20,611 bases of DNA from a virus: positions 1-20,611 of the IMG/VR virus record IMGVR_UViG_3300028550_003233, one strand, 5' to 3'. Within the stretch, counting starts at the first letter, position 1, and each line of letters begins with the position of its first letter. The translations under genes were made by a program, and so were the position numbers. This document shows, piece after piece, positions 1 through 17,877 of the stretch. Below the pieces are notes generated by a model, which was given only the letters and a program-made list of their open reading frames with translations, was not told the DNA's origin and did no database searches.

Positions 1-36
1 GGTAGCATCTTCGCTATCGACTAAAGGTATATAATC

Positions 37-327
37 ATGGAAAAGTTATTTGATCAAACTGCAGCTCTCTGTAAGAAAGTGTGCTACATCGCATTGGCTA
101 CGTTACTATTGCTAACGCTGGTTGATCGTGCTAATGCAGGAGAAGAAGTAGCCAGTGCTGAGGTCATTGCACCAGCAGCGATAACAGTACAGACTGAAAC
201 TGATGAAGTTAGTGGTCTGACCCGTGTTACGGTCTATATCCGCACCTTCATCAAGGATGTGCAGGATAAGTATCGTGATATCGTTTCCACCGATACTGAG
301 GCAACTGAGCTCCCAAAGGCCAGCTAG
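37..327 (+). CDS. small Sec-signal protein; N-terminal part of a likely frameshifted hydrolase
   Basis: The conventional product has 96 residues. It starts at ATG 37 after a weak purine-rich stretch (AAAGGT at 23-28). Residues 12-15 give a positive N-region (CKKV), residues 16-29 are strongly hydrophobic, and ANA at 32-34 followed by G35 is a typical signal peptidase I site. I therefore infer export to the periplasm, or anchoring if uncleaved. The remaining 60 residues show no domain I recognise. The last codons carry a CCCAAAG heptamer in the phase required for -1 frameshifting. The hydrolase frame is open from 309, so the gene most likely makes two products: this short protein and an exported hydrolase fusion. 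Seen: signal-like N-terminus and heptamer. Inferred: function. Confidence 0.75.
   Translation: MEKLFDQTAALCKKVCYIALATLLLLTLVDRANAGEEVASAEVIAPAAITVQTETDEVSGLTRVTVYIRTFIKDVQDKYRDIVSTDTEATELPKAS
312..318 (+). promoter_or_regulatory. putative -1 programmed ribosomal frameshift site (CCCAAAG)
   Basis: The codons of the upstream gene here are CTC-CCA-AAG, so the heptamer reads C CCA AAG, the canonical X XXY YYZ phase. The hydrolase frame has a stop at 306-308 and the upstream frame a stop at 325-327. The heptamer therefore lies inside the only 16 bases (309-324) where a switch could join the two frames. A GAGG at 298-301 lies 10 bases upstream, a spacing like the Shine-Dalgarno stimulator in dnaX. 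I see no convincing stem-loop just downstream. Confidence 0.6.
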
Positions 328-365
328 TCTTACGTCCCCCAACACCGTTCGACAATGCAGAAATT

Positions 366-794
366 ATGTGCCAAGCAGTTAACATATACTACGAGGCACG
401 TGATCAATCTGTACTAGGACAACGTTGGGTATTAGATGTGGTACGTAACCGTGTAAGAAGTAAGCGGTGGCCTGATACATACTGCGGTGTGGTCAAGCAA
501 CGCTTACAGTTCAGCTGGTATAACTCCGCAAAGTCGTGGATGCCAGAAGATCCAGCAGAGTGGTACGGCTACCTTAAAGGCCGTATACACAACACTGCTG
601 ACCGCATGGCCCTTGAAGAGGCTATGTTTCACGTTACGTGGTACTACCATCAGCAACCTCTCGACCGCACCGGTGGTGCAACTAACTACATGACATGGAA
701 CCTGTGGAATACACACACTGTGTCGTGGGGTGAGACGTTAGGTATTGCCGGTAGAGTGGGCGATCACATCTTTTTCTTAAGTGAAGAGAGGTAA
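366..794 (+). CDS. SleB-type cell wall hydrolase (endolysin); probably translated by frameshift from 37
   Basis: The frame matches the Hydrolase_2/SleB peptidoglycan hydrolase family. It has the NIYYEAR motif with the presumed catalytic Glu (E10 from the ATG at 366), GQRWVLDVVRNRV, a TYCGVVKQRLQFSW segment, ATNYMT and a C-terminal GDHIFF. These enzymes cut glycan strands, here presumably for lysis. The ATG at 366 has no Shine-Dalgarno sequence and begins only nine residues before the catalytic Glu. The frame is open from 309. A -1 slip at 312-318 would join it to the signal-bearing gene and give about 252 residues, with the catalytic Glu near position 120. The stop overlaps the GTG/ATG region of the next gene. 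Family call is confident; start by frameshift is inference. Confidence 0.85.
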   Translation: MCQAVNIYYEARDQSVLGQRWVLDVVRNRVRSKRWPDTYCGVVKQRLQFSWYNSAKSWMPEDPAEWYGYLKGRIHNTADRMALEEAMFHVTWYYHQQPLDRTGGATNYMTWNLWNTHTVSWGETLGIAGRVGDHIFFLSEER

Positions 795-801
795 GGCTAT
801 T

Positions 802-1470
802 ATGTTAAATTTAATTCTTTTTCTCCCGAAGGTAGCAATCTTCGGGGCTACGATGGGCAGCGTGAACTTCTTTAAGAAGAAGCGCAGCTCTGACCTTCCC
901 GCACATATTCATCATGTCATATTCGCACCTAAGTTCGGTGTTGATATGAAGAAGTTGATGAAAGGTATTGAAGCTGTTCTAGGTAAGGATCTTGAAAATA
1001 CTATTACTGAGCTACCTAACGGGTTTAAGCCAGGCCGCTCTATCGGTATGGGTGACCCGACATACACTGATGCTGAAAGCTTGATAGAGGCTGCGCAGGG
1101 GACGACATCCGTAGATGATGAATTCACTATCTTCCACCGACCTCGACTACGTACCCTGACTGCGTTGGTGTCGCTCGACACATTGATCAAGCTCAAGACT
1201 TCTAACTGTTTCAATATCTACGATGATGACGATCATACACAGAGTATCTACGAGAATCATCGTCGCTTTAAGCGTGAGAAGTTCTTAAGTGCTGCTGTCA
1301 AGGTGCTGTGTGGTATGGGTGAGTTTGAGAAGGAGTGCTTTGAGTGTGAGGAAGATCTCATTAATGGTGGGTTAGATTCCGATGGTGACTGTTGCAACTG
1401 TGGTTCTAGAATAGTCAATACGGAACTTCTGAACGATACTATTAACGAACTGGAAAAAGCAGCAGCCTAA
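802..1470 (+). CDS. hypothetical protein with hydrophobic N-terminus and C-terminal zinc-ribbon-like cysteines
   Basis: I prefer ATG 802 (222 residues). AGAGAGG at 785-791 is a Shine-Dalgarno sequence with a 10-base spacer. The GTG at 781 would add seven residues inside the hydrolase gene and lacks a good site. Residues 1-17 are hydrophobic (MLNLILFLPKVAIFG) and are followed by a basic KKKR. The middle is soluble-looking and matches no family I know. Near the C-terminus CFEC and CCNC lie about 14 residues apart, a possible zinc ribbon, followed by a short helix ending in Ala-rich sequence. It follows the lytic hydrolase directly. The function is unknown. Confidence 0.75.
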   Translation: MLNLILFLPKVAIFGATMGSVNFFKKKRSSDLPAHIHHVIFAPKFGVDMKKLMKGIEAVLGKDLENTITELPNGFKPGRSIGMGDPTYTDAESLIEAAQGTTSVDDEFTIFHRPRLRTLTALVSLDTLIKLKTSNCFNIYDDDDHTQSIYENHRRFKREKFLSAAVKVLCGMGEFEKECFECEEDLINGGLDSDGDCCNCGSRIVNTELLNDTINELEKAAA

Positions 1471-1487
1471 AGGTGAGGAGGTGAGGT

Positions 1488-1739
1488 ATGACCACACTGC
1501 GTAATAAAGGCAAGGGTCAGAGTATGGAGAGGGAAGACCATACAATGTGTCGTGTTAAAACTAAGGCAATACAGATTACGATGCTAGCGCTCATGCTGAA
1601 TGCTAGCTTTGTCCTTCTCTATATGTCAGGGATGTTAGAGTTTAAGAAGGAGAACTTTGATATCATCGTTACGACGGTGCTTATCAGTTCTGATCTATTA
1701 CTATTTGCGTTCTTACACTTCTTTACGGAGAAAGGTTAA
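1488..1739 (+). CDS. small two-span membrane protein; holin-like candidate
   Basis: The product has 83 residues and begins after a very strong GAGGAGGTGAGG-type ribosome site. It has a basic N-terminus of about 27 residues and two predicted membrane spans (about 28-48 and 59-79) joined by a short charged loop (EFKKENFD). Size, two spans and position two genes after the SleB hydrolase are compatible with a holin, but no holin family motif is recognised. If the hydrolase is Sec-exported, a pinholin-like role would also fit. The stop (TAA 1737-1739) overlaps the next start by one base, suggesting coupled translation. Confidence 0.7.
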   Translation: MTTLRNKGKGQSMEREDHTMCRVKTKAIQITMLALMLNASFVLLYMSGMLEFKKENFDIIVTTVLISSDLLLFAFLHFFTEKG

Positions 1740-1990
1740 TGGCTGAAGATACAGAAGGTGGTGGCGTAGTACCTGGGGTGTTTGGTGGTAATCATAATAT
1801 CGAGCATCTTATTAAGCATCTTAGAGACGATGCTAAACCTGAAGGCCCTGCACTGGTGATGTTTGAGAATAAGGATGGCGAGTTCGTCCCTATTGTCCTT
1901 AACCTCACCACTGAGGAGCTCTGCCTCTTTAAGGAGATGCTGGGAGGTATTATCCGTAGCATGATGAATGGGTCGGAATGGGAGGAATAG
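1739..1990 (+). CDS. hypothetical small acidic protein
   Basis: The product has 83 residues. Its ATG overlaps the preceding TAA by one base (TAATG), and the preceding frame ends in GGAGAAAGG, which can serve as ribosome site. The N-terminus is Gly-rich (GGGVVPGVFGG). The rest looks like a compact alpha/beta protein with ALVMFENKDGEFVPIVLNL followed by an amphipathic helix rich in Met and Leu, then an acidic end (EWEE). No signal peptide or membrane segment is seen. I do not recognise the family. Confidence 0.65.
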   Translation: MAEDTEGGGVVPGVFGGNHNIEHLIKHLRDDAKPEGPALVMFENKDGEFVPIVLNLTTEELCLFKEMLGGIIRSMMNGSEWEE

Positions 1991-2058
1991 TAACACAATC
2001 GTAGGGCATTCGCAATAGTGTCCTACCGTGGTGTAACTGATGAAAGGAGTGACGTGTA

Positions 2059-2484
2059 ATGAGTAAAAGTAATAGTGTAAAGGTAGCTCTCGAAGAGATG
2101 GCGGGCAATGCCCCCAGCTACCTGTTGTATGGGAGCGGGATGCTCCTCCTAGGGGTAGCTTTCTTGTTTGACCATCTTCACAATGCCACTGTGTTGATGG
2201 GTAAGAAAGCGATCAATAAGGCTTTCCCAGTAGGCCAGAAGAGTGAGGTAGTTGCTCGAGCAACAGCCTGCCACGCTGAGAAAGAACGAGAGCCGGCGGT
2301 CTCTCGAGAGAGAATAGATGACGTCTCTGAGGTCAGTCCCAAGGCTGGATCAGAGACTACCATCATTGATGAGCAGCCGTCTACTGACTCGTCCTCTACT
2401 GGTGAGGTGACGCCTCTTAAAGCCTCTGCTGAGGTTCAACTGCAAGAGTTGAAGTTCGACGCCAGCCATTCCACCTCTGAGTAG
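2059..2484 (+). CDS. single-span membrane protein with disordered Ser/Thr/Glu-rich tail
   Basis: The product has 141 residues and starts after AAAGGAG (2043-2049). A hydrophobic span lies at about residues 20-38 (YLLYGSGMLLLGVAFLF). It is followed by a long polar, low-complexity tail of about 95 residues rich in Ser, Thr, Glu and Val, likely disordered. The last codons contain a TTCAACT/AGTTGAA inverted repeat (2435-2453), whose arm is repeated in the loop of the T-arm-like hairpin just after the stop. Membrane anchoring is inferred from composition. No function is recognised. Confidence 0.7.
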   Translation: MSKSNSVKVALEEMAGNAPSYLLYGSGMLLLGVAFLFDHLHNATVLMGKKAINKAFPVGQKSEVVARATACHAEKEREPAVSRERIDDVSEVSPKAGSETTIIDEQPSTDSSSTGEVTPLKASAEVQLQELKFDASHSTSE

Positions 2485-2509
2485 CAAGGTTCAACTCCTT
2501 GACCCCGCT
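2485..2509 (+). other. tRNA T-arm plus 3' acceptor-like fragment
   Basis: The stem CAAGG/CCTTG (5 bp) encloses a 7-base loop TTCAACT that fits T54 T55 C56 R57 A58 N59 Y60, and the closing pair is G53-C61. It is followed by seven bases, ACCCCGC, and a T in the discriminator position, as in the 3' end of many bacterial tRNA-Gly genes. No CCA follows. No tRNA 5' part lies upstream, where the preceding gene is. It may be an attachment-site remnant, part of a tRNA-like RNA, or chance. Confidence 0.35.
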
Positions 2510-2901
2510 AATGCTGGGTAGCTATCGGTAGCTGCCAGAGATATGGTAGGTAAGAAATGCACCAGCTAGTATGTAAGCTGGGCAGTGTCACATCCTAAGA
2601 TGATTGCCCTACATGGATTCCAATCTAAGTAGCATCTTTAAGCCCTGTGGTACTTAAAATAGAGATTGCCAGAACTAGGGCTGAGCGTTTCCCTAGTACC
2701 TGTAGAGGTTATACTCACTACTAACCAACCTAACACCAATAGGTTGAGGACTACCTGATTACTTGCGTAGTACCTGTACTTTAAAACCGTTGCTTGTAAT
2801 CACATCTGTCACAAACGAACTGTGCATAGCTCTGAAAGGCCCTGCATGAGGACATGGCAGGTTATAAATGTACTACCACACGAAGTCTAGGGTCTTCATC
2901 C

Positions 2902-3007
2902 CTAACCTCTCAACGGGTATGCCTGCCTACCACCAAGGGCTTATATCTTCCCAGCAGTCTGGGGTTAAGGTGTAATAGGACTGTAGCGGGTCCACTAGAG
3001 AGGTTAG
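2902..3007 (+). other. long-range 10-bp stem enclosing a multi-hairpin domain
   Basis: CTAACCTCTC (2902-2911) is exactly complementary to GAGAGGTTAG (2998-3007). It encloses 86 bases that contain GGTA/TACC, CCCAG/CTGGG (2950-2963) and GGAC/GTCC (2978-2993) hairpins. The left arm overlaps the right arm of the TAGGG/CCCTA hairpin (2888-2904), so the two structures exclude one another over 2902-2904. This is read directly from the sequence; folding energies were not computed. Confidence 0.45.
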
Positions 3008-3060
3008 AATAGAGGGCCTTAGGCTTCATCCTAAATGTAATGTCATGAAGGAGATCTCAA

Positions 3061-3435
3061 TTGAAGCTTTTCATTGAGAAATACTTTGGTCTGGCGGTAA
3101 TTGTTACCTTGTGTCTGAGTGCAGGTGCTTGGTTTAACATTGATCGTCACAAGTCGGAACCCTTAACGCCGACTACTATCAATGCGCCTAAGGTCGGGTC
3201 GGAAGTCGGGAGCAAGTCAATTGTTCTTACGTCCCCCAGTCCTCTGGGTGTAGATGAATCTAATCCCAAGCAGACAGAGGAGGAAGTGATGGCATCTATT
3301 GTCCGTAACGCCTGTCTCCAGCGGTGCCCTTCAGGTACCGTGCCTGTGTTTATTGGTGATGAAATAGTGGGTTTCTTCGACCATGTGTCCGCACGTATGA
3401 CTGATTTCACTCTAGGGGAGCGTCTTAATTTATAG
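3061..3435 (+). CDS. hypothetical protein with N-terminal membrane anchor
   Basis: The product has 124 residues and starts at TTG 3061. The unusual start is supported by AAGGAG at 3048-3053 with a seven-base spacer and by the lack of a nearby ATG in frame. Residues 8-25 are hydrophobic (YFGLAVIVTLCLSAGAWF), after a short K/E N-terminus, and look like a signal anchor. A polar Ser/Pro/Thr-rich stretch (about 30-70) leads to a compact C-terminal part with ACLQRC, VPVFIGDEIVGFF and RMTDF. The two cysteines could form a disulfide if the domain is periplasmic. No family is recognised. The start site may be masked by upstream CTTCAT hairpin loops. Confidence 0.65.
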   Translation: MKLFIEKYFGLAVIVTLCLSAGAWFNIDRHKSEPLTPTTINAPKVGSEVGSKSIVLTSPSPLGVDESNPKQTEEEVMASIVRNACLQRCPSGTVPVFIGDEIVGFFDHVSARMTDFTLGERLNL

Positions 3436-3460
3436 CCGTATTCCTCCAAAGGAGGCTTAT

Positions 3461-3694
3461 ATGCAGCACTACGCCGTGAAGTTAGCAGCTAAGAATGACT
3501 TCCTCAGCTTGTATCCAACTTTTAAGTGTGATACGACTGCTCTCTTGTCAGAATGCGACGAGGTATTACGTTCAATTCCAGTGGACAAGCAGAATGTTGA
3601 GATTGCTAAAGTCATGTTAAAGTACGAGCTGTTTACGGAAGCTGATTGCTTCGAAGATGACGACGGAACCACTGATGAGAACGTATCTCATTAA
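3461..3694 (+). CDS. hypothetical small soluble protein
   Basis: The product has 77 residues and follows a near-perfect ribosome site, AAAGGAGG, five bases before the ATG, so strong expression is likely. The sequence looks helical, with no membrane segment, and ends in an acidic stretch (FEDDDGTTDEN). Three cysteines are present without a zinc-ribbon pattern. It sits in the run of small host-takeover-type early genes. No family is recognised. Confidence 0.7.
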   Translation: MQHYAVKLAAKNDFLSLYPTFKCDTTALLSECDEVLRSIPVDKQNVEIAKVMLKYELFTEADCFEDDDGTTDENVSH

Positions 3695-3723
3695 GCTAGT
3701 ACTCGTCTCACAGGAGTAAGTGT

Positions 3724-3810
3724 ATGAATACCACTGTACCTAAGCGCACTGGTACAAGGGAACGAGGAGCTGATAACCGGAATAGCTCCTCAAATGAAGG
3801 TGACGGATAA
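3724..3810 (+). CDS. 28-residue hypothetical microprotein
   Basis: A short frame of 28 codons opens at ATG 3724 after AGGAG (3712-3716, spacer 7). The product is polar, basic in its first half (VPKRTGTRERGA) and Ser/Asn-rich at the end, with no hydrophobic core. It is probably disordered. Support comes only from the ribosome site and its fit between neighbouring genes. Confidence 0.4.
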   Translation: MNTTVPKRTGTRERGADNRNSSSNEGDG

Positions 3811-3884
3811 TACACACACCTGAAGGCCAAGCTTGCCTTAAACGCCAATTAAGGTAGGATAACTAACCCCCTCCAGGAGAATAC

Positions 3885-4040
3885 ATGTTTCCAAACCTGA
3901 GTTACCCTTTCGCATATGCGTGGAAAGGCACTATGGTGTTTGTTATGGGTAGATATTACCATAATGAATACCTCAAGACCCGTCGAGCTAAGTTTGAACA
4001 CTTGCTCAACGGAGATCCGCAAGTTAATGTATATCATTAG
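3885..4040 (+). CDS. 51-residue hypothetical protein
   Basis: The frame opens at ATG 3885 after AGGAGA (3875-3880). The leader CAGGAGAATACAT at 3874-3886 recurs before the gene at 4640. The product is aromatic-rich at the N-terminus (FPNLSYPFAYAWKG) with a short hydrophobic stretch (TMVFVMG), then a basic segment (KTRRAKF). It could be a small membrane-associated protein, but one span is barely long enough. It ends eight bases before the next gene. Confidence 0.55.
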   Translation: MFPNLSYPFAYAWKGTMVFVMGRYYHNEYLKTRRAKFEHLLNGDPQVNVYH

Positions 4041-4048
4041 AGGTTGAT

Positions 4049-4321
4049 ATGCCCGAAGAAGAAGAGAAGAGGTTGCGTTTCGGTACCATTGCATGGTTTA
4101 AGTTTGCATGGGGCTGCTTACGTTACAAAGGCTATACAGCCGAACACGTCGCAGTAGACACAGTGTCCTCTGCACGTAGCTATGGTACGTCGGCATTACT
4201 AGTAATGGTCAATGCAAAGTTACCATGGGTATGGCCTGCACTGAAAGGTATTGTGACTAAAGTCGCAGCCTTCTTTGCGGCCCTGTTTGCAGTTGCGAAG
4301 GATTTCGTACTGCATAGTTAA
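4049..4321 (+). CDS. small membrane protein with two hydrophobic segments
   Basis: The product has 90 residues. ATG 4049 has only a weak AGAGGT ribosome site (4039-4044) and lies close behind the previous stop, so coupling is possible. The N-terminus is charged (PEEEEKRLR). Hydrophobic segments lie at about 48-64 (SALLVMVNAKLPWVWPAL) and 68-84 (IVTKVAAFFAALFAVA). Together they suggest an inner-membrane protein, perhaps a hairpin. No family is recognised. The intergenic region that follows (4322-4436) has inverted repeats AGCGTA/TACGCT and GTAATAC/GTATTAC. Confidence 0.6.
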   Translation: MPEEEEKRLRFGTIAWFKFAWGCLRYKGYTAEHVAVDTVSSARSYGTSALLVMVNAKLPWVWPALKGIVTKVAAFFAALFAVAKDFVLHS

Positions 4322-4436
4322 GCGTAATACCTGTATTACTTCTTAGTACTCTCAGGCTGTACGCTAAGGTGGGATTTACACAAAGAGTCTCATCTTAAAG
4401 TACAGTCTGTTAAGAGCTAAGTAGGAGGGTTACATT

Positions 4437-4610
4437 ATGTATAACCCCAAGCTAGATGAAGTATGTAAGGAGTTTATACACCTTGCAATTAAGCATGCAG
4501 GTCAATATCATAGCATATGTCTGGAAGGTCAAGTTATCGAGCTTACCTCACCTATGTTTAAAGGAACTGTCGACCAGATCGTACCCTCGGTCGTAATTGA
4601 CTGGAAGTAA
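4437..4610 (+). CDS. 57-residue hypothetical protein
   Basis: The frame opens at ATG 4437 after a strong AGGAGGG site (4423-4429). The product is soluble-looking: an N-terminal helix with two Cys and several His (PKLDEVCKEFIHLAIKHAG), then a strand-rich half (VIELTSPMFKG, IVPSVVIDW). No family is recognised. Good ribosome site and clean spacing support a real gene. Confidence 0.55.
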   Translation: MYNPKLDEVCKEFIHLAIKHAGQYHSICLEGQVIELTSPMFKGTVDQIVPSVVIDWK

Positions 4611-4639
4611 TCTATGTACTATCTAACAGGAGAATACAT

Positions 4640-4762
4640 ATGAAAACTATACATGTTGATGAAACTAAACACGAAATAAGTTGTCCAATAGAGAAAAGGA
4701 TAACAAAGGTAGAGACTTCTATCCTAAACTTATCCTCTTACCTCCTATACTTTCCTCTGTAG
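4640..4762 (+). CDS. 40-residue hypothetical protein (uncertain)
   Basis: ATG 4640 follows AGGAGA (4628-4633), with the same CAGGAGAATACAT leader as the gene at 3885, which favours translation initiation here. The 40-residue product begins MKTIHVDETKHEI and ends in a Leu/Tyr/Ser-rich tail. A second frame, open 4681-4863 in the -1 phase, encodes a more membrane-like sequence (LILLPPILSSVGLVGSLF) but has only a TTG start without a ribosome site. Either the short product is correct, or the two frames are joined by a frameshift or a sequencing error. Confidence 0.4.
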   Translation: MKTIHVDETKHEISCPIEKRITKVETSILNLSSYLLYFPL

Positions 4763-4763
4763 G

Positions 4764-4962
4764 CTTGGTTGGTAGTCTTTTTACGATCTCCCTAAGAAAG
4801 CATCACCGTGTTAGGAGTAAAGACTGCAACGTGGCATCCTTGCGAATACTTAGTAAGGTATAGTTACATTATACTGTTATATTTGTGTATTGAATTGAAC
4901 TTGTGTTGATTCCCATAGTCTTATGTAGAAGAAGAAGAATAACTACATGAGGAGAACCAGCT
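4764..4962 (+). promoter_or_regulatory. AT-rich leader before the replication operon; possible host-type promoter
   Basis: No supported gene lies here. The stretch 4860-4930 is AT-rich and contains TATACT at 4870-4875, one base from the -10 consensus. TTGAAT/TTGAAC at 4890-4900 and TATGTA at 4922-4927 are weaker possible elements, but none has a good -35 at 17 bases. A sigma70-type promoter serving the primase-helicase is plausible but unproven. The AGGAG at 4950-4954 is the ribosome site for GTG 4963. Confidence 0.25.
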
Positions 4963-6687
4963 GTGGGAAAGGTACTAGAATCTAATGTGTGTCCGAACCC
5001 CGACTGTGGCAGCAGAAGCGGCTATAAGATCTATGAAGGGGAGAATGGTTCTGGCGATAATGCACACTGTTTTTCTTGTGGTAAGTACTTCCACGACCCG
5101 TATCAACGGGGCAGTAACACTGTTGAGGGAAGTAATACTGAGCATAAGAAAACACCTACTGTTCGAGGTCCGTCTCATGTACTGAGTATCAGTAGTACTG
5201 ACGAATGTTTACACCACCCTGTTCGTGAACTTAGCGGCAGGGGTATCTCTCATGCTTCTTGTGAGAGGTATGGTGTAAGAGTGGGGCTTGACTCTAGAGA
5301 CGGGTCAACCCCTATCTTCCATCTCTATCCTATGTCCAAGAATCGCGACATAACAGGATTTAAACAACGTGTCTGTTCAGACAAATCATTCCGCTCCATC
5401 GGCGACTGTAAGAACGTCGAACTATTCGGAGCTAACGTTGTAAACCCCACCGGAAAGAAACTATTCATAACTGAAGGCGAATTAGATGCCTTATCCCTAT
5501 ACCAAGTCCTTAAAGAACAGTCTAATATATCATGGGAACCATCTGTGGTATCACTCCCACATGGGTCCAGCAGTGCGGTTAGAAGCATCTCAGAAAATAT
5601 GGATCTCATCGACGGCTACGATGAAATTGTTCTTTGTTTTGATCAGGATTCTCCTGGCAAGCAAGCAACACAAGAAGTCTGTAAAGTCTTAGCTGGTAAA
5701 GTCTTCGTTGCTAAGTTCACTGAGAAAGATCCTAACGAGATGCTTGTCAAAGGTAAGGGCACTGACCTTAAATGGGCTGTCCTCACTAATGCTAAGAAGT
5801 ATCAACCAGATGGCATCCTTGATGCAGGAGATTGCTGGAGTCGCTATAAGGACTCTAACAACTCTGTCTGTCACCCATACCCCTCCACCATGTCAGGATT
5901 AACCGAGAAAACATACGGTTGCAGGCCTGGCTCCATCATTACAGTCACCTCTGGCTCAGGCTGTGGTAAGACACAGTTCCTTCGAGAGCTCAAGTACCAC
6001 TACTATCAAACAACCGACTTCAAGATTGCTGACATAGCACTAGAGGAGGACGTAGGGGATACTATTGGTGGCATGCTGTCTTTACACCTTAATAAAAGGA
6101 TAACCCTCCCAGATGTTAAAGTTACTCCAGAAGTTGAGAAGCAGGCCTTTGATGAGATATTTAGTTCTGGTCGTTTTACCCTCTACGATTTCTTTGGTGG
6201 TATGGATGACGATACTCTTTTCAGTAAACTCCGTTACTTTACCTCTACCGGACATAATATCATCTTCCTCGATCATCTTTCTATCATTGTTTCTGAGTTT
6301 GCAAGCGATGGTGGGGAAAGAGAAAGAATAGATACCATAATGACTAAGCTAGCTAAGCTAGTGAAAGAGACTGGTGTAATCATCTTCTTGGTGGTGCATC
6401 TCAAGAAAAGTGACTCCTCTAGACGATCGTTCGAAGAGGGAGCCACTCCTACCTTAGATGACTTGCGGGGCTCAGCCTCGATCAAGCAACTCTCCTGGGA
6501 CGTTATAGGTCTGTCCCGCAATCAACAACACCCTGATATACACTGTGCTAATACTACAGAACTCACAGTCCTCAAGTGTCGCTTCACTGGACGTACAGGT
6601 AGCGCTGGCTTCCTTAAGTTCGATGAGACAACTGGACGAATGCTCTCTACTATAGAGCCGGCTAACTATAGGCAAATTAAGAAATGA
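4963..6687 (+). CDS. T7 gp4-like DNA primase-helicase
   Basis: The product has 574 residues, close to T7 gp4 (566). It starts at GTG 4963 with AGGAG eight bases upstream. In order: a zinc-binding domain with C10, C15, C36 and C39; a TOPRIM primase core with TEGELDA (E171) and LCFDQD (D227, D229); and a RecA-like DnaB-type helicase with Walker A GSGCGKT (K336) and Walker B IIFLDHLS (D437). It should unwind the fork as a ring and prime lagging-strand synthesis with its own polymerase. The stop overlaps the next ATG by four bases, so it is coupled to the MazG-like gene. Assignment is secure by motif; symbol withheld as naming is phage-specific. Confidence 0.95.
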   Translation: MGKVLESNVCPNPDCGSRSGYKIYEGENGSGDNAHCFSCGKYFHDPYQRGSNTVEGSNTEHKKTPTVRGPSHVLSISSTDECLHHPVRELSGRGISHASCERYGVRVGLDSRDGSTPIFHLYPMSKNRDITGFKQRVCSDKSFRSIGDCKNVELFGANVVNPTGKKLFITEGELDALSLYQVLKEQSNISWEPSVVSLPHGSSSAVRSISENMDLIDGYDEIVLCFDQDSPGKQATQEVCKVLAGKVFVAKFTEKDPNEMLVKGKGTDLKWAVLTNAKKYQPDGILDAGDCWSRYKDSNNSVCHPYPSTMSGLTEKTYGCRPGSIITVTSGSGCGKTQFLRELKYHYYQTTDFKIADIALEEDVGDTIGGMLSLHLNKRITLPDVKVTPEVEKQAFDEIFSSGRFTLYDFFGGMDDDTLFSKLRYFTSTGHNIIFLDHLSIIVSEFASDGGERERIDTIMTKLAKLVKETGVIIFLVVHLKKSDSSRRSFEEGATPTLDDLRGSASIKQLSWDVIGLSRNQQHPDIHCANTTELTVLKCRFTGRTGSAGFLKFDETTGRMLSTIEPANYRQIKK

Positions 6688-6995
6688 ATGATTTAGAACA
6701 GTACCAAATAGATGCTATGAAGTTTGCTGATTTCAAGCATGAGGTCTACCCATTTCTAGGCTTACCCGAAGAAGTGGGAGAGTTCCTTAGACTATTTGCT
6801 AAGCTCTACCGTGGTGACTATGACAGCGTATCTACTGACGATGTCCTTAAAGAGGCTGGAGACGTCCTCTGGCAACTCACAGCATGCTTAGACACTCAGG
6901 GCCTTAGCCTCTCTCAAGCTGCTCAGATGAACATAGAGAAGCTTACAGACCGTAAAGAGCGGGATGTCATCAAAGGCTCAGGAGATAACCGATGA
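6684..6995 (+). CDS. MazG-like nucleotide pyrophosphohydrolase
   Basis: The product has 103 residues and shows the all-alpha NTP pyrophosphohydrolase signature: EEVGE (E29, E30, E33) followed 24 residues later by EAGD (E57, D60), the metal-binding EExxE...ExxD pattern. These enzymes hydrolyse NTPs or modified (d)NTPs to NMP and PPi. Phage copies have been proposed to sanitise the nucleotide pool or alter ppGpp levels. The ATG overlaps the helicase stop (ATGA). The length matches the short single-domain MazG form. Substrate cannot be read from the sequence. Confidence 0.85.
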   Translation: MNDLEQYQIDAMKFADFKHEVYPFLGLPEEVGEFLRLFAKLYRGDYDSVSTDDVLKEAGDVLWQLTACLDTQGLSLSQAAQMNIEKLTDRKERDVIKGSGDNR

Positions 6996-7120
6996 GTGAT
7001 TCAGGATACGGTGTAGCGTGTTGCAACAACCCAGATATACAGTCTAGTACTCACTGCGACTGGTGCAATAACTGCGGATGGTCTTATGACTATATCAACA
7101 ATGAGGAGTCTCCTGGATAA
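6992..7120 (+). CDS. 42-residue cysteine-rich (zinc-binding) microprotein
   Basis: ATG 6992 overlaps the preceding TGA by two bases and has AGGAGA at 6980-6985 with a six-base spacer. The 42-residue product has CC at 10-11, then C22, C25 and C28 in CDWCNNCGW, consistent with a small zinc ribbon or knuckle, and an acidic tail. It belongs to a series of Cys-rich microproteins spread through the replication cluster. The function is unknown. Confidence 0.6.
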   Translation: MSDSGYGVACCNNPDIQSSTHCDWCNNCGWSYDYINNEESPG

Positions 7121-7275
7121 TGAGAGGACAATGGCACGGCGGTAAAGGTACAGCAAGACGTCCAGAAGACAATAGTAAGATACTAAGCAGATGGCCCTAC
7201 CAAGAGCCTGGGGAGAGTAAAGATGACTACTTATTGCGAATGCGGGAACTTAAGTCTGGAAAGACTGTCATATAA
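7120..7275 (+). CDS. 51-residue hypothetical protein of the RGGKG/RRP type
   Basis: The ATG overlaps the preceding TAA (TAATG), with AGGAG 11 bases upstream, so coupled initiation is likely. The product starts RGQWHGGKGTARRP, which resembles small phage proteins with a GGKG...RP N-terminus that recur in many tailed phages without known role (from memory, not searched). The rest is charged (ESKDDYLLRMRELKSGK). Its last 53 bases are also read in another frame by the gene at 7223. Confidence 0.55.
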   Translation: MRGQWHGGKGTARRPEDNSKILSRWPYQEPGESKDDYLLRMRELKSGKTVI

Positions 7276-7315
7276 AGTATATTGCACTAAGTGCGGATTC
7301 ACGAGGTACACCTGA
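7223..7315 (+). CDS. 30-residue zinc-ribbon microprotein overlapping the previous gene
   Basis: ATG 7223 has GGAGA at 7212-7216 with a six-base spacer. The product contains CECG near the N-terminus and CTKCG near the C-terminus, 13 residues between the pairs, which is a classic CxxC...CxxC zinc ribbon in a minimal form. It overlaps the preceding frame by 53 bases in a different phase, and its TGA overlaps the next ATG by one base. The motif makes it credible despite the overlap. Confidence 0.5.
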   Translation: MTTYCECGNLSLERLSYKVYCTKCGFTRYT

Positions 7316-7461
7316 TGAGTAATAATAATGATCACATCTTCTTAGGTACTGACTACCAAGGCGAATACGACGATGTCTATGTGTCTCTATCAGATGTGCA
7401 TGAGCTAGAGAAGCAAGCCTATCAAAGAGGTTTGCGGGATGGTAAGCCATGTCAAGATTAG
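7315..7461 (+). CDS. 48-residue hypothetical protein
   Basis: The ATG shares its first base with the preceding TGA (TGATG), indicating coupled translation. The product begins SNNNDHIFLGTDYQGEYDD and continues with an amphipathic helix (HELEKQAYQRGLRDGK). It is acidic and soluble, with no recognised family. It overlaps the start of the DNA polymerase gene by 13 bases. Confidence 0.5.
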   Translation: MSNNNDHIFLGTDYQGEYDDVYVSLSDVHELEKQAYQRGLRDGKPCQD

Positions 7462-9242
7462 TATTCGACCTCGAAGCAAATGGGCTGTACGATGAAGCAG
7501 ATACGATCTGGTGCATATGTGCAGAGGACTTAGATACAGGGGAGAAGTACGAATGGACAAGCGAACTAAACAAGACAACTACGTACTCCTTTATGGATCA
7601 GGCGACCGAATTAGTCGGACACAACATCCTGAACTACGACCTACCCCTCTTAAAGAAGCTATGGAGCTGGGAGCCAAGTAAAGATGTTAAAATCACTGAC
7701 ACTCTGGTTATGTCGCGTCTGTCAAATCCAGATCGCCCCAAACCATTTGGTTTTACCTCTAAGGGTGGACCTCACAGCCTTGCATGTTGGGGATATCGAG
7801 TCGGCAAGGGTAAACCTGGACACGAGGACTGGACAGTATTCAGTCCCGATATGTTACATCGCTGCAAAGAAGACGTGGGAATCAACGTCCTCACATATCA
7901 TTCACTTACCTCTGAACTGACCCCGATAAAAGAGTGGCAAGATGCTCTTGACATAGAGTACAGGATCGCTAAGATAATCTCGGAGCAAGAGCATTATGGA
8001 ATATACTTTGATAAGCCAGCGGCTGACAGCCTCATTGAAGAGCTTACACACAAGATTGATGGAATTGATAGAGAGCTGGTTCCCTCTCTTCCCAGTACAG
8101 TCAAGCAGCGGGGAGCAACTGTTATGGCTCCTTTCACAAGCACTGGTAAGTATACTAGGCGCTATCGGGAAGACATTAGTTATTGTTCTGGTCCTTTCAC
8201 TCGTGTTGATATTATCCCTTTTGACCTTGGTTCGGTCGCAAAAGTAAAGGACTACCTACTATCACACGGCTGGGTTCCGGAGAACTGGAACTACTCTAAG
8301 CTGACAGGAGATAGAACCTCCCCTAAGCTAGAGGGAGACTTCTATGGTATCGAAGGTAACTTACCTACTAAAGTGAAGGAGAGATTGACATGCAGGCATC
8401 GTCGCTCACAGATAGAGGGCTGGTTGAAGTCCTTGAGACCAAATCAGACTTTACCCGCTGGAGCGAATCCATGTGGGACAAATACTGGACGGATGAGACA
8501 CTTTACCGTCGTTAACATCCCGAAGGCTTCGGTGAATGTTCCCTACGGTACCGCGATGCGTTCCTTGTTCATACCCCGTCCAAACTACAAGCTGGTTGGA
8601 CACGACGCCTCAGGTTTAGAGTTGAGGATGTTAGCCCACTACATGAACGACGCTGAATACACCCACGAAATCCTATCAGGAGATATCCATGAGTTTAACC
8701 AACGAGCAGCTGGACTTCCAAACCGCGATGCTGCAAAGACTTTTATCTACGCATTCATCTATGGTGCAGGGGATGCAAAACTCGGATCGATTATTGGAGG
8801 ATCTGCCAATGACGGAAAAGAGATTAGAGGAAAGTTTCTCGACGCTATCCCTAACCTTGAAAAACTTATCAAACGAGTTAAGCGCGCAAGTAGCAAAGGC
8901 TGGCTCAGAGGTCTGGACGGTCGCAAAGTAATGATGAGAAGGGGTCCTGACGGCCGTGTAATGGCCCACAAGGCACTTAATACTCTTCTCCAACACTCTG
9001 GAGCCATAGTAATGAAACAGTCTTGTATCGAACTATGGGACGACGTAGCAGCTAACGATATTACAGCACATAAGGTGCTTGATATGCACGATGAAGGACA
9101 ATCTGAGGTTTTACCGAAAGATGTTGAACTTTACAGTAAGTTAGCAGTCAAATCAATTGTAACAGCAGGCGAGCACTTCAACCTAAACATATCACTTGAC
9201 GCAGAAGCTAAGGTGGGTATGAATCTAGCGGAGACGCATTAA
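7449..9242 (+). CDS. family A DNA polymerase, T7 gp5-like, with 3'-5' exonuclease
   Basis: The product has 597 residues. The exonuclease domain shows DLEANGL (D7, E9) and GHNILNYDLPLL. The polymerase domain shows motif A HDASGLELR (D386), motif B RDAAKTFIYAFIYG (R426, K430, Y434) and motif C MHDEG (H547, D548, E549). Y434 aligns with T7 Y526, the residue linked to easy dideoxynucleotide incorporation. It replicates the phage genome with the primase-helicase. T7 gp5 has 704 residues and a roughly 76-residue thioredoxin-binding insertion; the shorter length here suggests that insertion is absent or reduced, so processivity may not depend on host thioredoxin. Assignment is secure. Confidence 0.96.
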   Translation: MSRLVFDLEANGLYDEADTIWCICAEDLDTGEKYEWTSELNKTTTYSFMDQATELVGHNILNYDLPLLKKLWSWEPSKDVKITDTLVMSRLSNPDRPKPFGFTSKGGPHSLACWGYRVGKGKPGHEDWTVFSPDMLHRCKEDVGINVLTYHSLTSELTPIKEWQDALDIEYRIAKIISEQEHYGIYFDKPAADSLIEELTHKIDGIDRELVPSLPSTVKQRGATVMAPFTSTGKYTRRYREDISYCSGPFTRVDIIPFDLGSVAKVKDYLLSHGWVPENWNYSKLTGDRTSPKLEGDFYGIEGNLPTKVKERLTCRHRRSQIEGWLKSLRPNQTLPAGANPCGTNTGRMRHFTVVNIPKASVNVPYGTAMRSLFIPRPNYKLVGHDASGLELRMLAHYMNDAEYTHEILSGDIHEFNQRAAGLPNRDAAKTFIYAFIYGAGDAKLGSIIGGSANDGKEIRGKFLDAIPNLEKLIKRVKRASSKGWLRGLDGRKVMMRRGPDGRVMAHKALNTLLQHSGAIVMKQSCIELWDDVAANDITAHKVLDMHDEGQSEVLPKDVELYSKLAVKSIVTAGEHFNLNISLDAEAKVGMNLAETH

Positions 9243-9273
9243 TGGGATGTCACTAGAATATGAGGAACTCACC

Positions 9274-9390
9274 ATGCAATACGGATGTGTAACATGCGGA
9301 GCTGAATGGTACGGATACAAAGAAGCGTGTCCTGTATGCTCTAAAGAGAAATCAGACCCTATAATTATTAAGGGCGAAAAAGACATATGA
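9274..9390 (+). CDS. 38-residue zinc-ribbon microprotein
   Basis: I prefer ATG 9274, with GAGGA at 9262-9266 seven bases upstream. An in-frame ATG at 9247 would add nine residues without a good site. The product has CVTCG at 5-9 and CPVC at 19-22, a rubredoxin- or ribbon-like CxxC...CxxC pair, with a lysine-rich tail. It lies between the DNA polymerase and the putative SSB. A nucleic-acid or protein-binding adaptor role is inference. Confidence 0.6.
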   Translation: MQYGCVTCGAEWYGYKEACPVCSKEKSDPIIIKGEKDI

Positions 9391-9406
9391 AAATTGAGGA
9401 TATAGT

Positions 9407-10000
9407 ATGAGCTTAATAGCAAGAAGTAGTAAATCAGCCAGTACAGCGGATCATCCAACTGCTGGCACGCATATGGCACGCCTAGTCGGTATTACAGATT
9501 TAGGTCATCAGCCAGGGTTTGTATACGAAGGTAAAGAGATCGAGTCTACCTTTAAGATGGAATTCACATATGAGTTAGTCAACTCTCTTATGGCAGACGG
9601 ACGTCCACACTGGGTATCTGAGCAGTTTAAGAATAATGACTTCGTACCAGATAAGCCAGGCGGTTTCATCGCTACCATGATGGCTCGTGTTGCAGCACTG
9701 ACACCTGAGTCTCCTGTTGATACTGACGTGTCTAAGTTGATTGGTAAGCCTTGTATGGTTACTGTGTCTATCAACTCTGGTGGGTATCCTAAGGTAGCTG
9801 GTCAAGGTGCAGTCACAGGCATCCCAGTAGGCATGGATATTCCAGCCCTAGTTAATGATACCTTTACCTTCGACATGGATGATCCTGATATGGACTTGTG
9901 GGAGACCTTCCCAGAGTTCAAGCAGAAGCGTATCAAGGAAGCATTAAACTTCGAAGAGACTGAACTTTTCAAACAGGTAGCGCTTCAAGGTGCATTCTAA
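9407..10000 (+). CDS. putative single-stranded DNA-binding protein
   Basis: The product has 197 residues. The sequence from MARLVGITDLGHQPGFVYEG through a strand-rich core (FKMEFTYELVN, PCMVTVSINSGG) looks like an OB-fold. It resembles proteins annotated as SSB or of unknown function near phage replication genes (from memory). It ends with an acidic segment (DMDDPDMDLWETF) and a C-terminal Phe, features reminiscent of gp2.5-type SSBs whose acidic tail contacts polymerase and helicase. Position between polymerase and 5' exonuclease fits. No catalytic motif is seen. ATG 9407 has GAGGAT upstream. Confidence 0.6.
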   Translation: MSLIARSSKSASTADHPTAGTHMARLVGITDLGHQPGFVYEGKEIESTFKMEFTYELVNSLMADGRPHWVSEQFKNNDFVPDKPGGFIATMMARVAALTPESPVDTDVSKLIGKPCMVTVSINSGGYPKVAGQGAVTGIPVGMDIPALVNDTFTFDMDDPDMDLWETFPEFKQKRIKEALNFEETELFKQVALQGAF

Positions 10001-10149
10001 TGAGTGACTGTGACTCTTGCTGGTATGCTAATAAGGGGTGGGATTACTGTCCCATCCACTATCCAGGCAAGCAGACAGAAGACTGTCCAGCTTATTGTCG
10101 CGATGATGTTTGTACTGTTGAAGAAGAAATCAGACAAGAGGATAGCTAG
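10000..10149 (+). CDS. 49-residue cysteine-rich microprotein
   Basis: The ATG overlaps the SSB stop by one base (TAATG). The product carries C4, C7, C17, H20, C29, C33 and C38, enough ligands for one or two zinc sites, then an acidic tail (VEEEIRQEDS). It has the richest Cys content of the series. Translational coupling to the SSB gene is likely. The function is unknown. Confidence 0.6.
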   Translation: MSDCDSCWYANKGWDYCPIHYPGKQTEDCPAYCRDDVCTVEEEIRQEDS

Positions 10150-10242
10150 ATGTACTCTAACGATATCATTTTTTGCCCTCACTGTAGACGTTCTAACTAT
10201 GATCATCAAACTATCTGCCAATGGTGTGGAGAAGAATTATGA
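10150..10242 (+). CDS. 30-residue zinc-ribbon microprotein
   Basis: The ATG follows directly after the preceding TAG with no gap. The product has CPHC at 9-12 and CQWCG at 23-27, a complete CxxC...CxxC ribbon in 30 residues, similar to the zinc ribbons at the ends of larger DNA-binding proteins. Its TGA overlaps the next ATG by four bases. Confidence 0.6.
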   Translation: MYSNDIIFCPHCRRSNYDHQTICQWCGEEL

Positions 10243-10382
10243 CATATAATAAGATCTGGTTAAAGTATTCAGATAACACTCACTATACTGTATGTGTACA
10301 GGAGCCTGTTGATAGATCTGACTTTGTAGAGTATGAGCTGTCTCAAGATGAGCAACGAGCGGAGTCTGGAGTCTACGGATGA
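10239..10382 (+). CDS. 47-residue hypothetical protein
   Basis: The ATG overlaps the preceding stop (ATGA). The product begins TYNKIWLKYSDNTHYTVCVQ, which looks like a pair of beta strands, and ends in an acidic helix-like stretch (FVEYELSQDEQRAE). It has one Cys and no zinc motif, unlike the genes on either side. Its TGA overlaps the next ATG by four bases. Confidence 0.5.
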   Translation: MTYNKIWLKYSDNTHYTVCVQEPVDRSDFVEYELSQDEQRAESGVYG

Positions 10383-10465
10383 ACGCATTCTGGATCTGCG
10401 ATGACTGCTACACTAAGAATACGATAAAAGATAGCTTATGTAGAAAATGTGGGGAGAGAAGGTGA
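10379..10465 (+). CDS. 28-residue zinc-ribbon microprotein
   Basis: The ATG overlaps the preceding stop by four bases. The product contains CDDC at 7-10 and CRKCG at 21-25 and ends GERR, so almost the whole protein is a minimal zinc ribbon. It overlaps the GTG start of the 5' exonuclease gene by four bases (GTGA), and its last codons supply that gene's GGGGAGA ribosome site. Confidence 0.55.
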   Translation: MNAFWICDDCYTKNTIKDSLCRKCGERR

Positions 10466-11223
10466 AAGCACTAATAGACTTCGACATCTTTTCCTACGAG
10501 TTCGGTAACTGTTCAGATGCAGAGTATCGACCACTAGCCTGGCCTCTAGTCCAAGCAAGACTGCAAGGACGTATAGACAAGATCTTAGAGGCTACTGGAG
10601 CTGATTGTTACCAAGGTTATCTGACCAGCTCAGACAAGTCTAACTTCCGGTACGACATAGCCACTATAAGGCCTTATAAGGGCCAGAGAGTGTCAGAGAA
10701 GCCTCACCACTATGACAGGATAAGATCCTTCCTAGTGGAATATAGAGGCGCTATCATGTGTTACGGTCAGGAAGCTGACGATGCCATGTCCATTGAGCAA
10801 TATAAGTTGCTAGGGAAGGAACCAAGCGACTGTCACACTGTCATAGCTACAAGAGACAAAGATCTAGACATGGTACCTGGTTACCATTACAACTGGGGAG
10901 CGGGGAAGCAAGTTGAAAAGAACATGTGGTTCCAAGATAAGATCGGCGGTCAAAGGTGTTTTTACAAGCAACTACTTACTGGTGATACTGTTGATAACAT
11001 CCCAGGCCTCTTTGGTGTTGGGAAGTCCAGCTCTCATGTTAAGCGCATTGATACTTACGATACCGTATATGATATGTATAGTGCGGTACTATTAGAGTAT
11101 AAGAAAAGGTTCGGGAGCTATGCAGAACAGTTCCTGACAGAGAACGCTATCCTCTTGTGGATGCGAGAGTTTGAGGACGAGATATGGAAACCTCCAGTTT
11201 TGACTCCCTCTACAGAGCAGTAA
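10462..11223 (+). CDS. T7 gp6-like 5'-3' exonuclease (FEN/PIN-like)
   Basis: I prefer GTG 10462 (253 residues, starting KALIDFDIFSYEFG) with GGGGAGA at 10451-10457. The ATG at 10447 would add five residues and lacks a site. Metal-binding acidic residues of the flap-endonuclease family are visible: D6 and D8, GQEADD (E104, D106, D107), ATRDKDLD (D132, D134) and LLTGDTVDNIPG (D175, D178), the last followed by a helix-hairpin-helix (FGVGKSSS). It likely removes RNA primers and degrades DNA ends during replication and recombination. The end overlaps the endonuclease gene by 40 bases. Confidence 0.9.
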   Translation: MKALIDFDIFSYEFGNCSDAEYRPLAWPLVQARLQGRIDKILEATGADCYQGYLTSSDKSNFRYDIATIRPYKGQRVSEKPHHYDRIRSFLVEYRGAIMCYGQEADDAMSIEQYKLLGKEPSDCHTVIATRDKDLDMVPGYHYNWGAGKQVEKNMWFQDKIGGQRCFYKQLLTGDTVDNIPGLFGVGKSSSHVKRIDTYDTVYDMYSAVLLEYKKRFGSYAEQFLTENAILLWMREFEDEIWKPPVLTPSTEQ

Positions 11224-11660
11224 TAGAGACGGATCAAATGATGAAAAAGAAGCAACCTAGCTTCAGAAGTAAGTTAGAAGAAGACAACGCTAAGATACTA
11301 GACCAGAATAATATAGACTATGATTTTGAACCTAAGTGGGGGAAGCTTAAGTATATAGTTCCTGCTAAACAGTGTACATACCTGCCGGACTTCTATGTCC
11401 GTACACGTAGCGGGAAAGAGATCATAATCGAGTGTAAAGGTATCTGGGTCTACAATGATAGACTTAAACATCTCCTCATCAGGCTACTTAGGCCTGAGTT
11501 GGATATTAGATTTGTCTTCTCTAACTCAAAGAACAGAATCAGGAAAGGCAGTAAGGCCTGCTATGCTGACATCTGTAATGGCAAAGGCCGTGGTGACTTC
11601 AAAGGGGTTACATGGCAATACGCGGACCGTAAGGTTCCATTGGAATGGTTAGAGGAGTAA
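11184..11660 (+). CDS. T7 endonuclease I-like Holliday junction resolvase
   Basis: The product has 158 residues from ATG 11184, which has GAGGA at 11173-11177. An in-frame ATG pair at 11238 would give a start closer to that of T7 gp3 (149 residues). The active-site residues of the family align: E32 in RSKLEED, D69 in YLPDF, and E83 and K85 in IIIECKG (T7 E20, D55, E65, K67). DRLKHLLIR...PELDIRFVF and the closing VPLEWLEE also match. It resolves branched DNA and helps break down host DNA. The 40-base overlap with the exonuclease gene suggests coupled expression. Confidence 0.92.
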   Translation: METSSFDSLYRAVIETDQMMKKKQPSFRSKLEEDNAKILDQNNIDYDFEPKWGKLKYIVPAKQCTYLPDFYVRTRSGKEIIIECKGIWVYNDRLKHLLIRLLRPELDIRFVFSNSKNRIRKGSKACYADICNGKGRGDFKGVTWQYADRKVPLEWLEE

Positions 11661-11664
11661 GGTT

Positions 11665-11772
11665 ATGGGTTTTTGTCCCTGGTGTGATAGAGAGATCGCT
11701 TTCAATGATCACGATGTAGTCTTCATCGACGGTCAAGAATACCACAGCCGATGCGGCTCTCAAGTAGAGTAA
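11665..11772 (+). CDS. 35-residue Cys/His microprotein
   Basis: ATG 11665 has AGGAG at 11653-11657 with a seven-base spacer. The product has CPWC at 4-7 and a second pair of potential ligands in HSRCG (H27, C30), giving a CxxC...HxxC zinc site. It is acidic overall. It belongs to the set of Cys-rich microproteins flanking each replication enzyme. Confidence 0.55.
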   Translation: MGFCPWCDREIAFNDHDVVFIDGQEYHSRCGSQVE

Positions 11773-11777
11773 CAAAC

Positions 11778-11978
11778 ATGTTCAACTTGATAACGACCTT
11801 AGAGGTTAATCAAATAAAGGATACTCTACAGGAATTATCAGCACTCGCTGACCCTTCTGAGTACAGTAAGAATGAAGTAGAAGAACTTATTGAGCTACTA
11901 GGCTCTTTAGAACCTCTGGATACAGAGACAGTATTACAACTTAATAAGGAAGACGATAATGGAAGCACTAATAAGTGA
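11778..11978 (+). CDS. hypothetical small acidic helical protein
   Basis: I prefer ATG 11778 (66 residues), just after the preceding stop. An in-frame ATG at 11751 would add nine residues inside the preceding gene and has no ribosome site. The sequence is Leu/Glu-rich and predicted helical (VNQIKDTLQELSALAD, EVEELIELLGSLE). It may form a helical hairpin. No family is recognised. It overlaps the next gene by 20 bases. Confidence 0.55.
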   Translation: MFNLITTLEVNQIKDTLQELSALADPSEYSKNEVEELIELLGSLEPLDTETVLQLNKEDDNGSTNK

Positions 11979-12099
11979 GTTTGAAGCAGTACTAGGTGAA
12001 GTGGGTGTAGATCAACGTGATGCTCTCGTGCGTGTACGTGACCTGATTGATTCTAAGATTGGTTCGTTTGTAATAGAGACAATAGAAGTAGGTGAATAA
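11959..12099 (+). CDS. 46-residue hypothetical acidic protein
   Basis: ATG 11959 follows AAGGA (11946-11950) with an eight-base spacer and lies within the end of the previous frame. The product is an acidic, probably helical microprotein (EALISEFEAVLGEVGV, VRDLIDSKIGSFVIETIEV) without Cys or a membrane segment. The next ATG is two bases after the stop region. Confidence 0.5.
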   Translation: MEALISEFEAVLGEVGVDQRDALVRVRDLIDSKIGSFVIETIEVGE

Positions 12100-12100
12100 C

Positions 12101-12253
12101 ATGGCAGCAGTAAAACCGAAGACTACTAAAGTAGCCAATGCCAAGGTTGCTAAAAAAGTACCCCGTAAGACCTTACGAGACTATAGCTTTATAGAGCAAT
12201 GTTTAGTCGTGATCATAGGCCTGAATGTGGTACAGATAGTACTGGGTTGTTAA
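12101..12253 (+). CDS. 50-residue basic protein with C-terminal membrane segment
   Basis: ATG 12101 follows an AGGTGA site. The first half is strongly basic and low complexity (VKPKTTKVANAKVAKKVPRK). The last 20 residues are hydrophobic (CLVVIIGLNVVQIVLGC), suggesting a tail-anchored membrane microprotein. It is the last gene of the rightward operon before the terminator. The function is unknown. Confidence 0.55.
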   Translation: MAAVKPKTTKVANAKVAKKVPRKTLRDYSFIEQCLVVIIGLNVVQIVLGC

Positions 12254-12309
12254 GTATAACCCCCGACATGTCTTAAGTAATCCGTCCCGATTGGGACACT
12301 GTAGAAACG

Positions 12310-12349
12310 AAAAAGCCCCAACGTCCATAGAGGATGCTGGGGCTTTTTT
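12310..12349. terminator. bidirectional rho-independent terminator
   Basis: AAAAAGCCCCA (12310-12320) pairs with TGGGGCTTTTT, followed by a sixth T at 12349. The inner CGTCC/GGATG pairs extend the stem around a short loop. A T run after the stem on each strand lets it stop both the rightward replication operon and the leftward late operon, which converge here. Confidence 0.93.
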
Positions 12350-12367
12350 GTATCTGTAAGAAAGTGA

Positions 12368-12607
12368 TCAGGCTAGTATTAAATCTCGTACACTGTATCC
12401 GAAAAAGAGTAGTGAGGCTAAAATGAGGGCTCGAAAGGACCCAGTGATAATCTTCTCTTTTAACAATTGCTTGAGTTCCTTCTCAGCTTTATGTTCTTCG
12501 ATTAGAACACGAAGATATTCATGCTCTATATTGTGCTGTTCCTTGTTCTTTTTATTGTCATCAGCTATTTGATTCAGTAGCTTCAGTATTTCCTTCTGAT
12601 TATCCAT
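12368..12607 (-). CDS. small coiled-coil protein with C-terminal membrane span; holin or lysis-accessory candidate
   Basis: The product has 79 residues. Residues 1-54 are highly charged and helical (LNQIADDNKKNKEQ, EEHKAEKELKQLLKEK). Residues about 58-74 form one hydrophobic span (FRALILASLLFFGYSV). This is the last gene of the late operon, a place where T7-like phages often carry lysis genes. A single C-terminal span would be atypical for the common two- or three-span holins, so a holin call is tentative. It could also be a virion or antiholin-like membrane protein. Confidence 0.7.
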   Translation of the reverse strand: MDNQKEILKLLNQIADDNKKNKEQHNIEHEYLRVLIEEHKAEKELKQLLKEKIITGSFRALILASLLFFGYSVRDLILA

Positions 12608-12627
12608 TCCAGCACCCTTAGTTCGTG

Positions 12628-16410: not shown

Positions 16411-16412
16411 GT

Positions 16413-17876: not shown

Positions 17877-17877
17877 C

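Follow-up and report, generated by a model that had tools for sequence, protein, structure and literature searches.

The locus examined here raises the question of how a cell-wall hydrolase of the SleB family is translated, and whether it leaves the cytoplasm, in a virus where the hydrolase frame and the signal-peptide gene ahead of it lie in different reading frames. An earlier note on this DNA proposed that a programmed −1 frameshift joins the two. We find that −1 frameshifting yielding a 252-aa exported lysin is the best reading of the locus, with a probability of roughly two in three. The evidence for such a lysin is sequence-based and comes from one phage lineage. The coordinates of the features discussed below are collected in Table 1.

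Table 1. Positions of the features at the orfA/SleB locus and in sister phages, with the basis for each
Feature	Position	Strand	Basis
orfA, zero-frame ORF of 96 aa encoding signal peptide and linker	37..327	+	frame 1, stop TAG 325–327
Predicted Sec signal peptide MEKLFDQTAALCKKVCYIALATLLLLTLVDRANA, cleavage between ANA and G	37..138	+	read from sequence
SD-like GAGG, 10 bases 5′ of the heptamer, possible stimulator	298..301	+	at chance frequency
TGA closing the SleB frame on the upstream side	306..308	+	sequence
SleB (Hydrolase_2) frame from one stop to the next, with 158 codons past the shift site	309..794	+	profile, family comparison, structure model
Slippery heptamer C_CCA_AAG; a −1 shift would have base 318 decoded twice	312..318	+	phase, statistics, E. 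coli efficiency
Speculative stimulator, weak hairpin 327–353 plus loop pairing	327..429	+	RNA folding, no comparative support
Strong RNA hairpin burying ATG 366	357..412	+	folding, −20.6 kcal/mol for 355–412
Sole ATG of the SleB frame ahead of the catalytic Glu; judged an internal Met codon	366..368	+	family comparison, ribosome-site energy, model
Holin candidate belonging to this cassette, 83 aa with two hydrophobic stretches	1488..1739	+	read by eye
Signal-peptide proteins in the orfA slot	L005 6566–6841; L012 6020–6478; L013 5947–6462		

Source contig and a second genotype

The window, meaning the whole stretch of DNA that was analysed, is the 20.6-kb IMG/VR virus contig IMGVR_UViG_3300028550_003233 (positions 1–20,611), which is incomplete and contains replication genes for a primase-helicase, a family A DNA polymerase, an exonuclease and endonuclease I. 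A second contig, IMGVR_UViG_3300030105_002900, is 100% identical to window positions 1–800, with the same orfA/SleB layout, and 99.96% identical over 1–10791; over 10792–18672 the identity falls to 98.6% with several indels, and it therefore represents a different genotype. Since a contig of another genotype agrees over 1–800, an assembly error confined to a single contig was rejected, and a random, one-off assembly error at the orfA/SleB junction is unlikely on this comparison. A tandem repeat encoding ADYDARIAKEQ-like units was observed at approximately 17180–17365, where the two genotypes differ by indels.

The window contained neither a tRNA detectable by ARAGORN nor a match to Rfam. Of the windows sampled for RNA structure, the one at 4336–4437, 5′ of the ORF at 4437, was far more structured than any other (z of about −7.3, −41.6 kcal/mol, no Rfam match). 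Long stretches between short ORFs, without convincing genes, were seen at 2485–3060 of the window and at approximately 3700–4230 of contig L002.

Overlap of the orfA and SleB frames at a slippery heptamer

The upstream signal-peptide gene and the SleB frame were recovered as the earlier note had described them, namely an ORF at 37–327 (96 aa) and a SleB ORF at 366–794. A ribosome site, AAGG, is found 9 bases 5′ of ATG 37, and the predicted signal peptide of orfA is clear by eye, the sequence across its predicted cleavage site reading MEKLFDQTAALCKKVCYIALATLLLLTLVDRANA followed by GEEV; it is joined to SleB only given a frameshift. The SleB frame, lying one frame back from orfA, opens after TGA 306–308 in frame 0, and the orfA frame ends at TAG 325–327 in frame 1, leaving an overlap of the 16 open, sense bases (309–324) that had been claimed. 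Within it, CCCAAAG occupies positions 312–318 between the two stops and is read C_CCA_AAG in frame 1, so the exact −1 phase asserted for this heptamer is borne out.

The overlap site is the only copy of CCCAAAG on either strand of the 20.6-kb window. Among 5235 codon positions in 15 genes, in-phase XXXAAA[AG] heptamers were counted at two, the overlap site being one of them, and in-phase X_XXY_YYZ heptamers of any kind at 10. The chance expectation over the four usable positions of the overlap is approximately 0.0015 for the XXXAAA[AG] type and 0.0076 for any X_XXY_YYZ, figures that were computed after the heptamer had been spotted. When all 64 heptamers were compared systematically in E. coli, C_CCA_AAG ranked in the top three for efficiency, and together with the IS3 pseudoknot it gave the highest value of that study, 54% (PMC4066793). 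Atkins and colleagues also class it as highly shift-prone, and slippage on AAG depends on the tRNA-Lys set of the host (PMC5009743). A further heptamer, G_GGA_AAG, was observed at 4963–4971, right at the start codon of the primase-helicase, whose ORF begins GTGGGAAAG; its occurrence there is probably due to chance.

With regard to stimulators, the SD-like GAGG pointed out in the earlier note is indeed present at 298–301, and a motif of this type at such a distance is a known kind of stimulator (PMC4066793); however, 17% of gene positions match it in both quality and spacing, and the motif is therefore unremarkable and carries little weight. No stable hairpin directly follows the heptamer, and none was detected within 50 bases of the site except the one over ATG 366. 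The weak hairpin at 327–353 begins 8 bases past the heptamer and exposes a loop, CCCAAC (338–343), which can pair with GUUGGG (424–429). The long-range structure after the heptamer has a z of about −3, placing it in the top 5% of windows; a long-range stimulatory element spanning 327–429 is possible but speculative. Without a strong stimulator the efficiency of frameshifting may be low, yet it could suffice for a lytic enzyme.

Architecture of the predicted fusion and integrity of the SleB domain

A shift at the heptamer would give 94 + 158 = 252 residues, the length originally proposed, in the order signal peptide, linker of approximately 80 residues, and SleB. The claim that the shift adds a signal peptide to the hydrolase thus holds for the predicted fusion. 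The junction had been given as LPKKGQLV; it is actually ELPK-GQLV (LPKGQLV), with a single Lys, and is spanned by the predicted Glu-C peptide LPKGQLVLRPPTPFDNAE.

A comparison set of 169 SleB sequences, 89 from phages (window included) and 80 from bacteria, shows that a signal peptide, a linker and SleB form an ordinary architecture and that the frame break alone is unusual. Signal-peptide-like N-termini in one frame with SleB were found in 26 of the 89 phage sequences and in 78 of the 80 bacterial relatives. Xanthomonas phage X1, Stenotrophomonas phage DLP6 and phage C48C1 likewise encode a signal peptide, a linker and a SleB domain in which both the conserved Cys and the catalytic Glu are present, and the linker of X1 is acidic and similar to that of the window; in these three wall hydrolases, however, all parts lie in one frame, whereas in the window they do not.

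The SleB domain itself matched PF07486 (SleB/Hydrolase_2; cut-off 27 bits) with a score of 55.8 bits (E 7.5e-15). Its predicted structure has an intact fold (pLDDT 88.7), the nearest solved structures being those of SleB, 4fet (Foldseek E 1.2e-05) and 4f55. The catalytic Glu and 29 of 40 family-conserved columns are kept; the remaining 11 deviate, the most for any of 84 members, and one of them is a His present in all 83 others. The changes within 366–794 include GATHYH to GATNYM, CDG to NSA and a four-residue insertion, WNLWNTH. Since almost invariant residues are altered, the surroundings of the active site may differ. Divergence may account for the deviations, as may a broken gene at an early stage of decay.

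The latter is the main rival of the frameshift reading: a signal peptide–SleB gene once in one frame would have been broken recently by a one-base indel, the heptamer being coincidental or the site of the indel itself, and slippage would be accidental at most. We consider this unlikely, though it is the best of the alternatives. It accords with the deviance of the domain and with the fact that no homologue shares the split (0 of the 168 other relatives), and the two contigs, near-identical in this region, may descend from one mutant. Indels also favour short homopolymers, of which the site has two, CCC and AAA, so a broken gene is somewhat likelier than random sequence to display a slippery site. 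Nevertheless, the SleB frame has remained open from end to end and is still the one preferred by codon statistics. Over 309–365, frame 0 is the best of the three, weakly, by an estimated threefold for coding. Furthermore, a heptamer ranking with the most slippery known sits in exact phase at the break, and none of three common lysin families (Amidase_2, Phage_lysozyme and Peptidase_M15_4) scored above cut-off in the window, which is incomplete, or in the contigs of its sister phages, which may be fragments.

Initiation of SleB and the putative lysis slot of related phages

Somewhat less likely still is that orfA and SleB are separate genes, with SleB translated from ATG 366 (or ATT 363) by reinitiation or weak initiation, 39 bases 3′ of the orfA stop, to give a cytoplasmic enzyme released by a holin. 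In its favour, 56 of the 89 phage SleBs are short at the N-terminus and have no signal peptide; the short SleB lysin of Roseobacter phage CRP-6, for instance, has the same catalytic domain as that of the window. A holin candidate with two hydrophobic segments follows at 1488. However, short lysins of the CRP-6 type have a start of their own 5–7 codons before the conserved Cys, and the window has none. No ATG, GTG or TTG occurs in the SleB frame between 309 and 366, and ATG 366, as the earlier note had stated, is without a ribosome site: with an anti-SD duplex energy of +0.2 kcal/mol it ranks last among 12 plus-strand genes, but two further genes of the window, at 10447 (−0.9 kcal/mol) and 6684 (−2.4 kcal/mol), also have weak sites. 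The codon is moreover buried in a hairpin in which AUUAUGUGCC pairs with GGCACGUGAU; among the 102-nt windows sampled, 5% were as structured as this region.

The family comparison strongly supports translation of SleB from 5′ of ATG 366. A start codon is present at least five codons ahead of the conserved Cys in 168 of the 169 sequences, the window being the sole exception with its start codon one codon ahead; a start with a ribosome site at least five codons before the Cys, as would mark a stand-alone SleB, is absent from the window. The codons 5′ of this Cys encode A-E-I-M, in agreement with the family N-terminus, where E occupies position −3 in 84 of 168 relatives and L, I or V position −2 in 124 of 168. 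The predicted structure places Met 366 fourth in the first main helix, the one bearing the catalytic Glu, and initiation there would drop the first turn of this helix. The lack of a ribosome site, the hairpin, the family N-terminus and the position within the helix together led us to judge ATG 366 unsuitable as a start. The tryptic peptide GQLVLRPPTPFDNAEIMCQAVNIYYEAR is encoded in the SleB frame upstream of Met 366.

Relatives of the locus were sought in IMG/VR (with SleB, primase, orfA, polymerase and two DNA patterns as queries) and in GTDB. These scans yielded no SleB of intermediate distance, the best homologues reaching 38% identity across the full domain and 53% across a portion of 70 residues. 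Nor did they recover a homologue of orfA other than the near-identical contig; that genotype is the sole relative with both the orfA and SleB parts and the heptamer. Three sister phages (L005, L012 and L013), whose primases are 47–56% identical to that of the window, encode a signal-peptide protein in the orfA slot and, after it, a small protein containing two hydrophobic segments, and no SleB gene was found anywhere in their contigs. A stand-alone signal-peptide protein in this slot is in keeping with separate genes, and its retention without SleB indicates that an exported protein occupies the slot even where the enzyme is missing. The pair of proteins is possibly a lysis cassette without a recognised endolysin. 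Homology of orfA to the slot protein of L005 was not accepted, the 23% identity having come from a forced pairwise alignment. The slot proteins of L012 and L013 have a coiled-coil-like tail, and L013 also contains, at 10001–12513, a helicase gene divided between two frames around residue 339; extra DNA separates the parts, as an intron or homing element would leave.

A sequencing or assembly error common to both contigs is a very improbable source of the frame break: both are metagenomic, but they are of different genotypes and agree over 1–800, the homopolymers at the site are just three bases long, and no frame break was found in the five conserved genes aligned to relatives (primase, polymerase, the gene at 9407, exonuclease and endonuclease I).

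Proposed mechanism and its significance

According to the frameshift reading, the orfA and SleB frames would constitute one gene, on which ribosomes begin at ATG 37 and translate the signal peptide and linker. Most would stop at TAG 325–327 and release a 96-aa exported protein, and a fraction would slip back one base at C_CCA_AAG, with tRNA-Pro moving from CCA to CCC and tRNA-Lys from AAG to AAA. Reading would then continue as GQLVLRPP... into SleB to give the 252-aa precursor, which would be exported by Sec and trimmed by signal peptidase to a periplasmic wall hydrolase. We infer the slippage, its level, the export and the role in lysis. It is conceivable, though on balance doubtful, that −1 frameshifting sets how much of a secreted endolysin is made, and perhaps when, and that the zero-frame product is a separate exported lysis partner; the signal-peptide protein that the sister phages have in this slot, without the enzyme, would fit such a role.

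With dnaX, IS3-family elements and phage tail chaperones (PMC4066793, PMC5009743) the locus shares an in-phase X_XXA_AAG heptamer, a short overlap of two frames, an SD-like motif upstream and, as predicted here, a longer product fused by a −1 shift. The window differs from these in that the downstream frame encodes a wall hydrolase and the upstream frame a signal peptide, and no conserved or clear stimulator is seen. In the lysis gene of MS2, a lysis function is likewise tied to an irregular event in the translation of an upstream frame; there, L is produced as a protein of its own once translation of the upstream gene has terminated, whereas a fused enzyme is predicted for the window.

In the parts of the open-access literature consulted, no frameshift control of an endolysin was identified, and in papers naming both endolysins and frameshifts the latter appear to affect tail or structural genes; the main text of a frame-transition survey of 1106 genomes contains neither "lysin" nor "lysozyme" (PMC3711429). 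If confirmed, frameshifting used for endolysin export would be new, a provisional statement as the literature search covered open-access papers alone. Phages must not lyse their host early, and an endolysin that reaches the wall through Sec by itself escapes the timing imposed by the holin. If the frameshift reading is true, restricting the export-competent enzyme to a fixed fraction of translation would provide a simple translational brake on lysis, and the locus would be a compact natural frameshift cassette that is easily tested.
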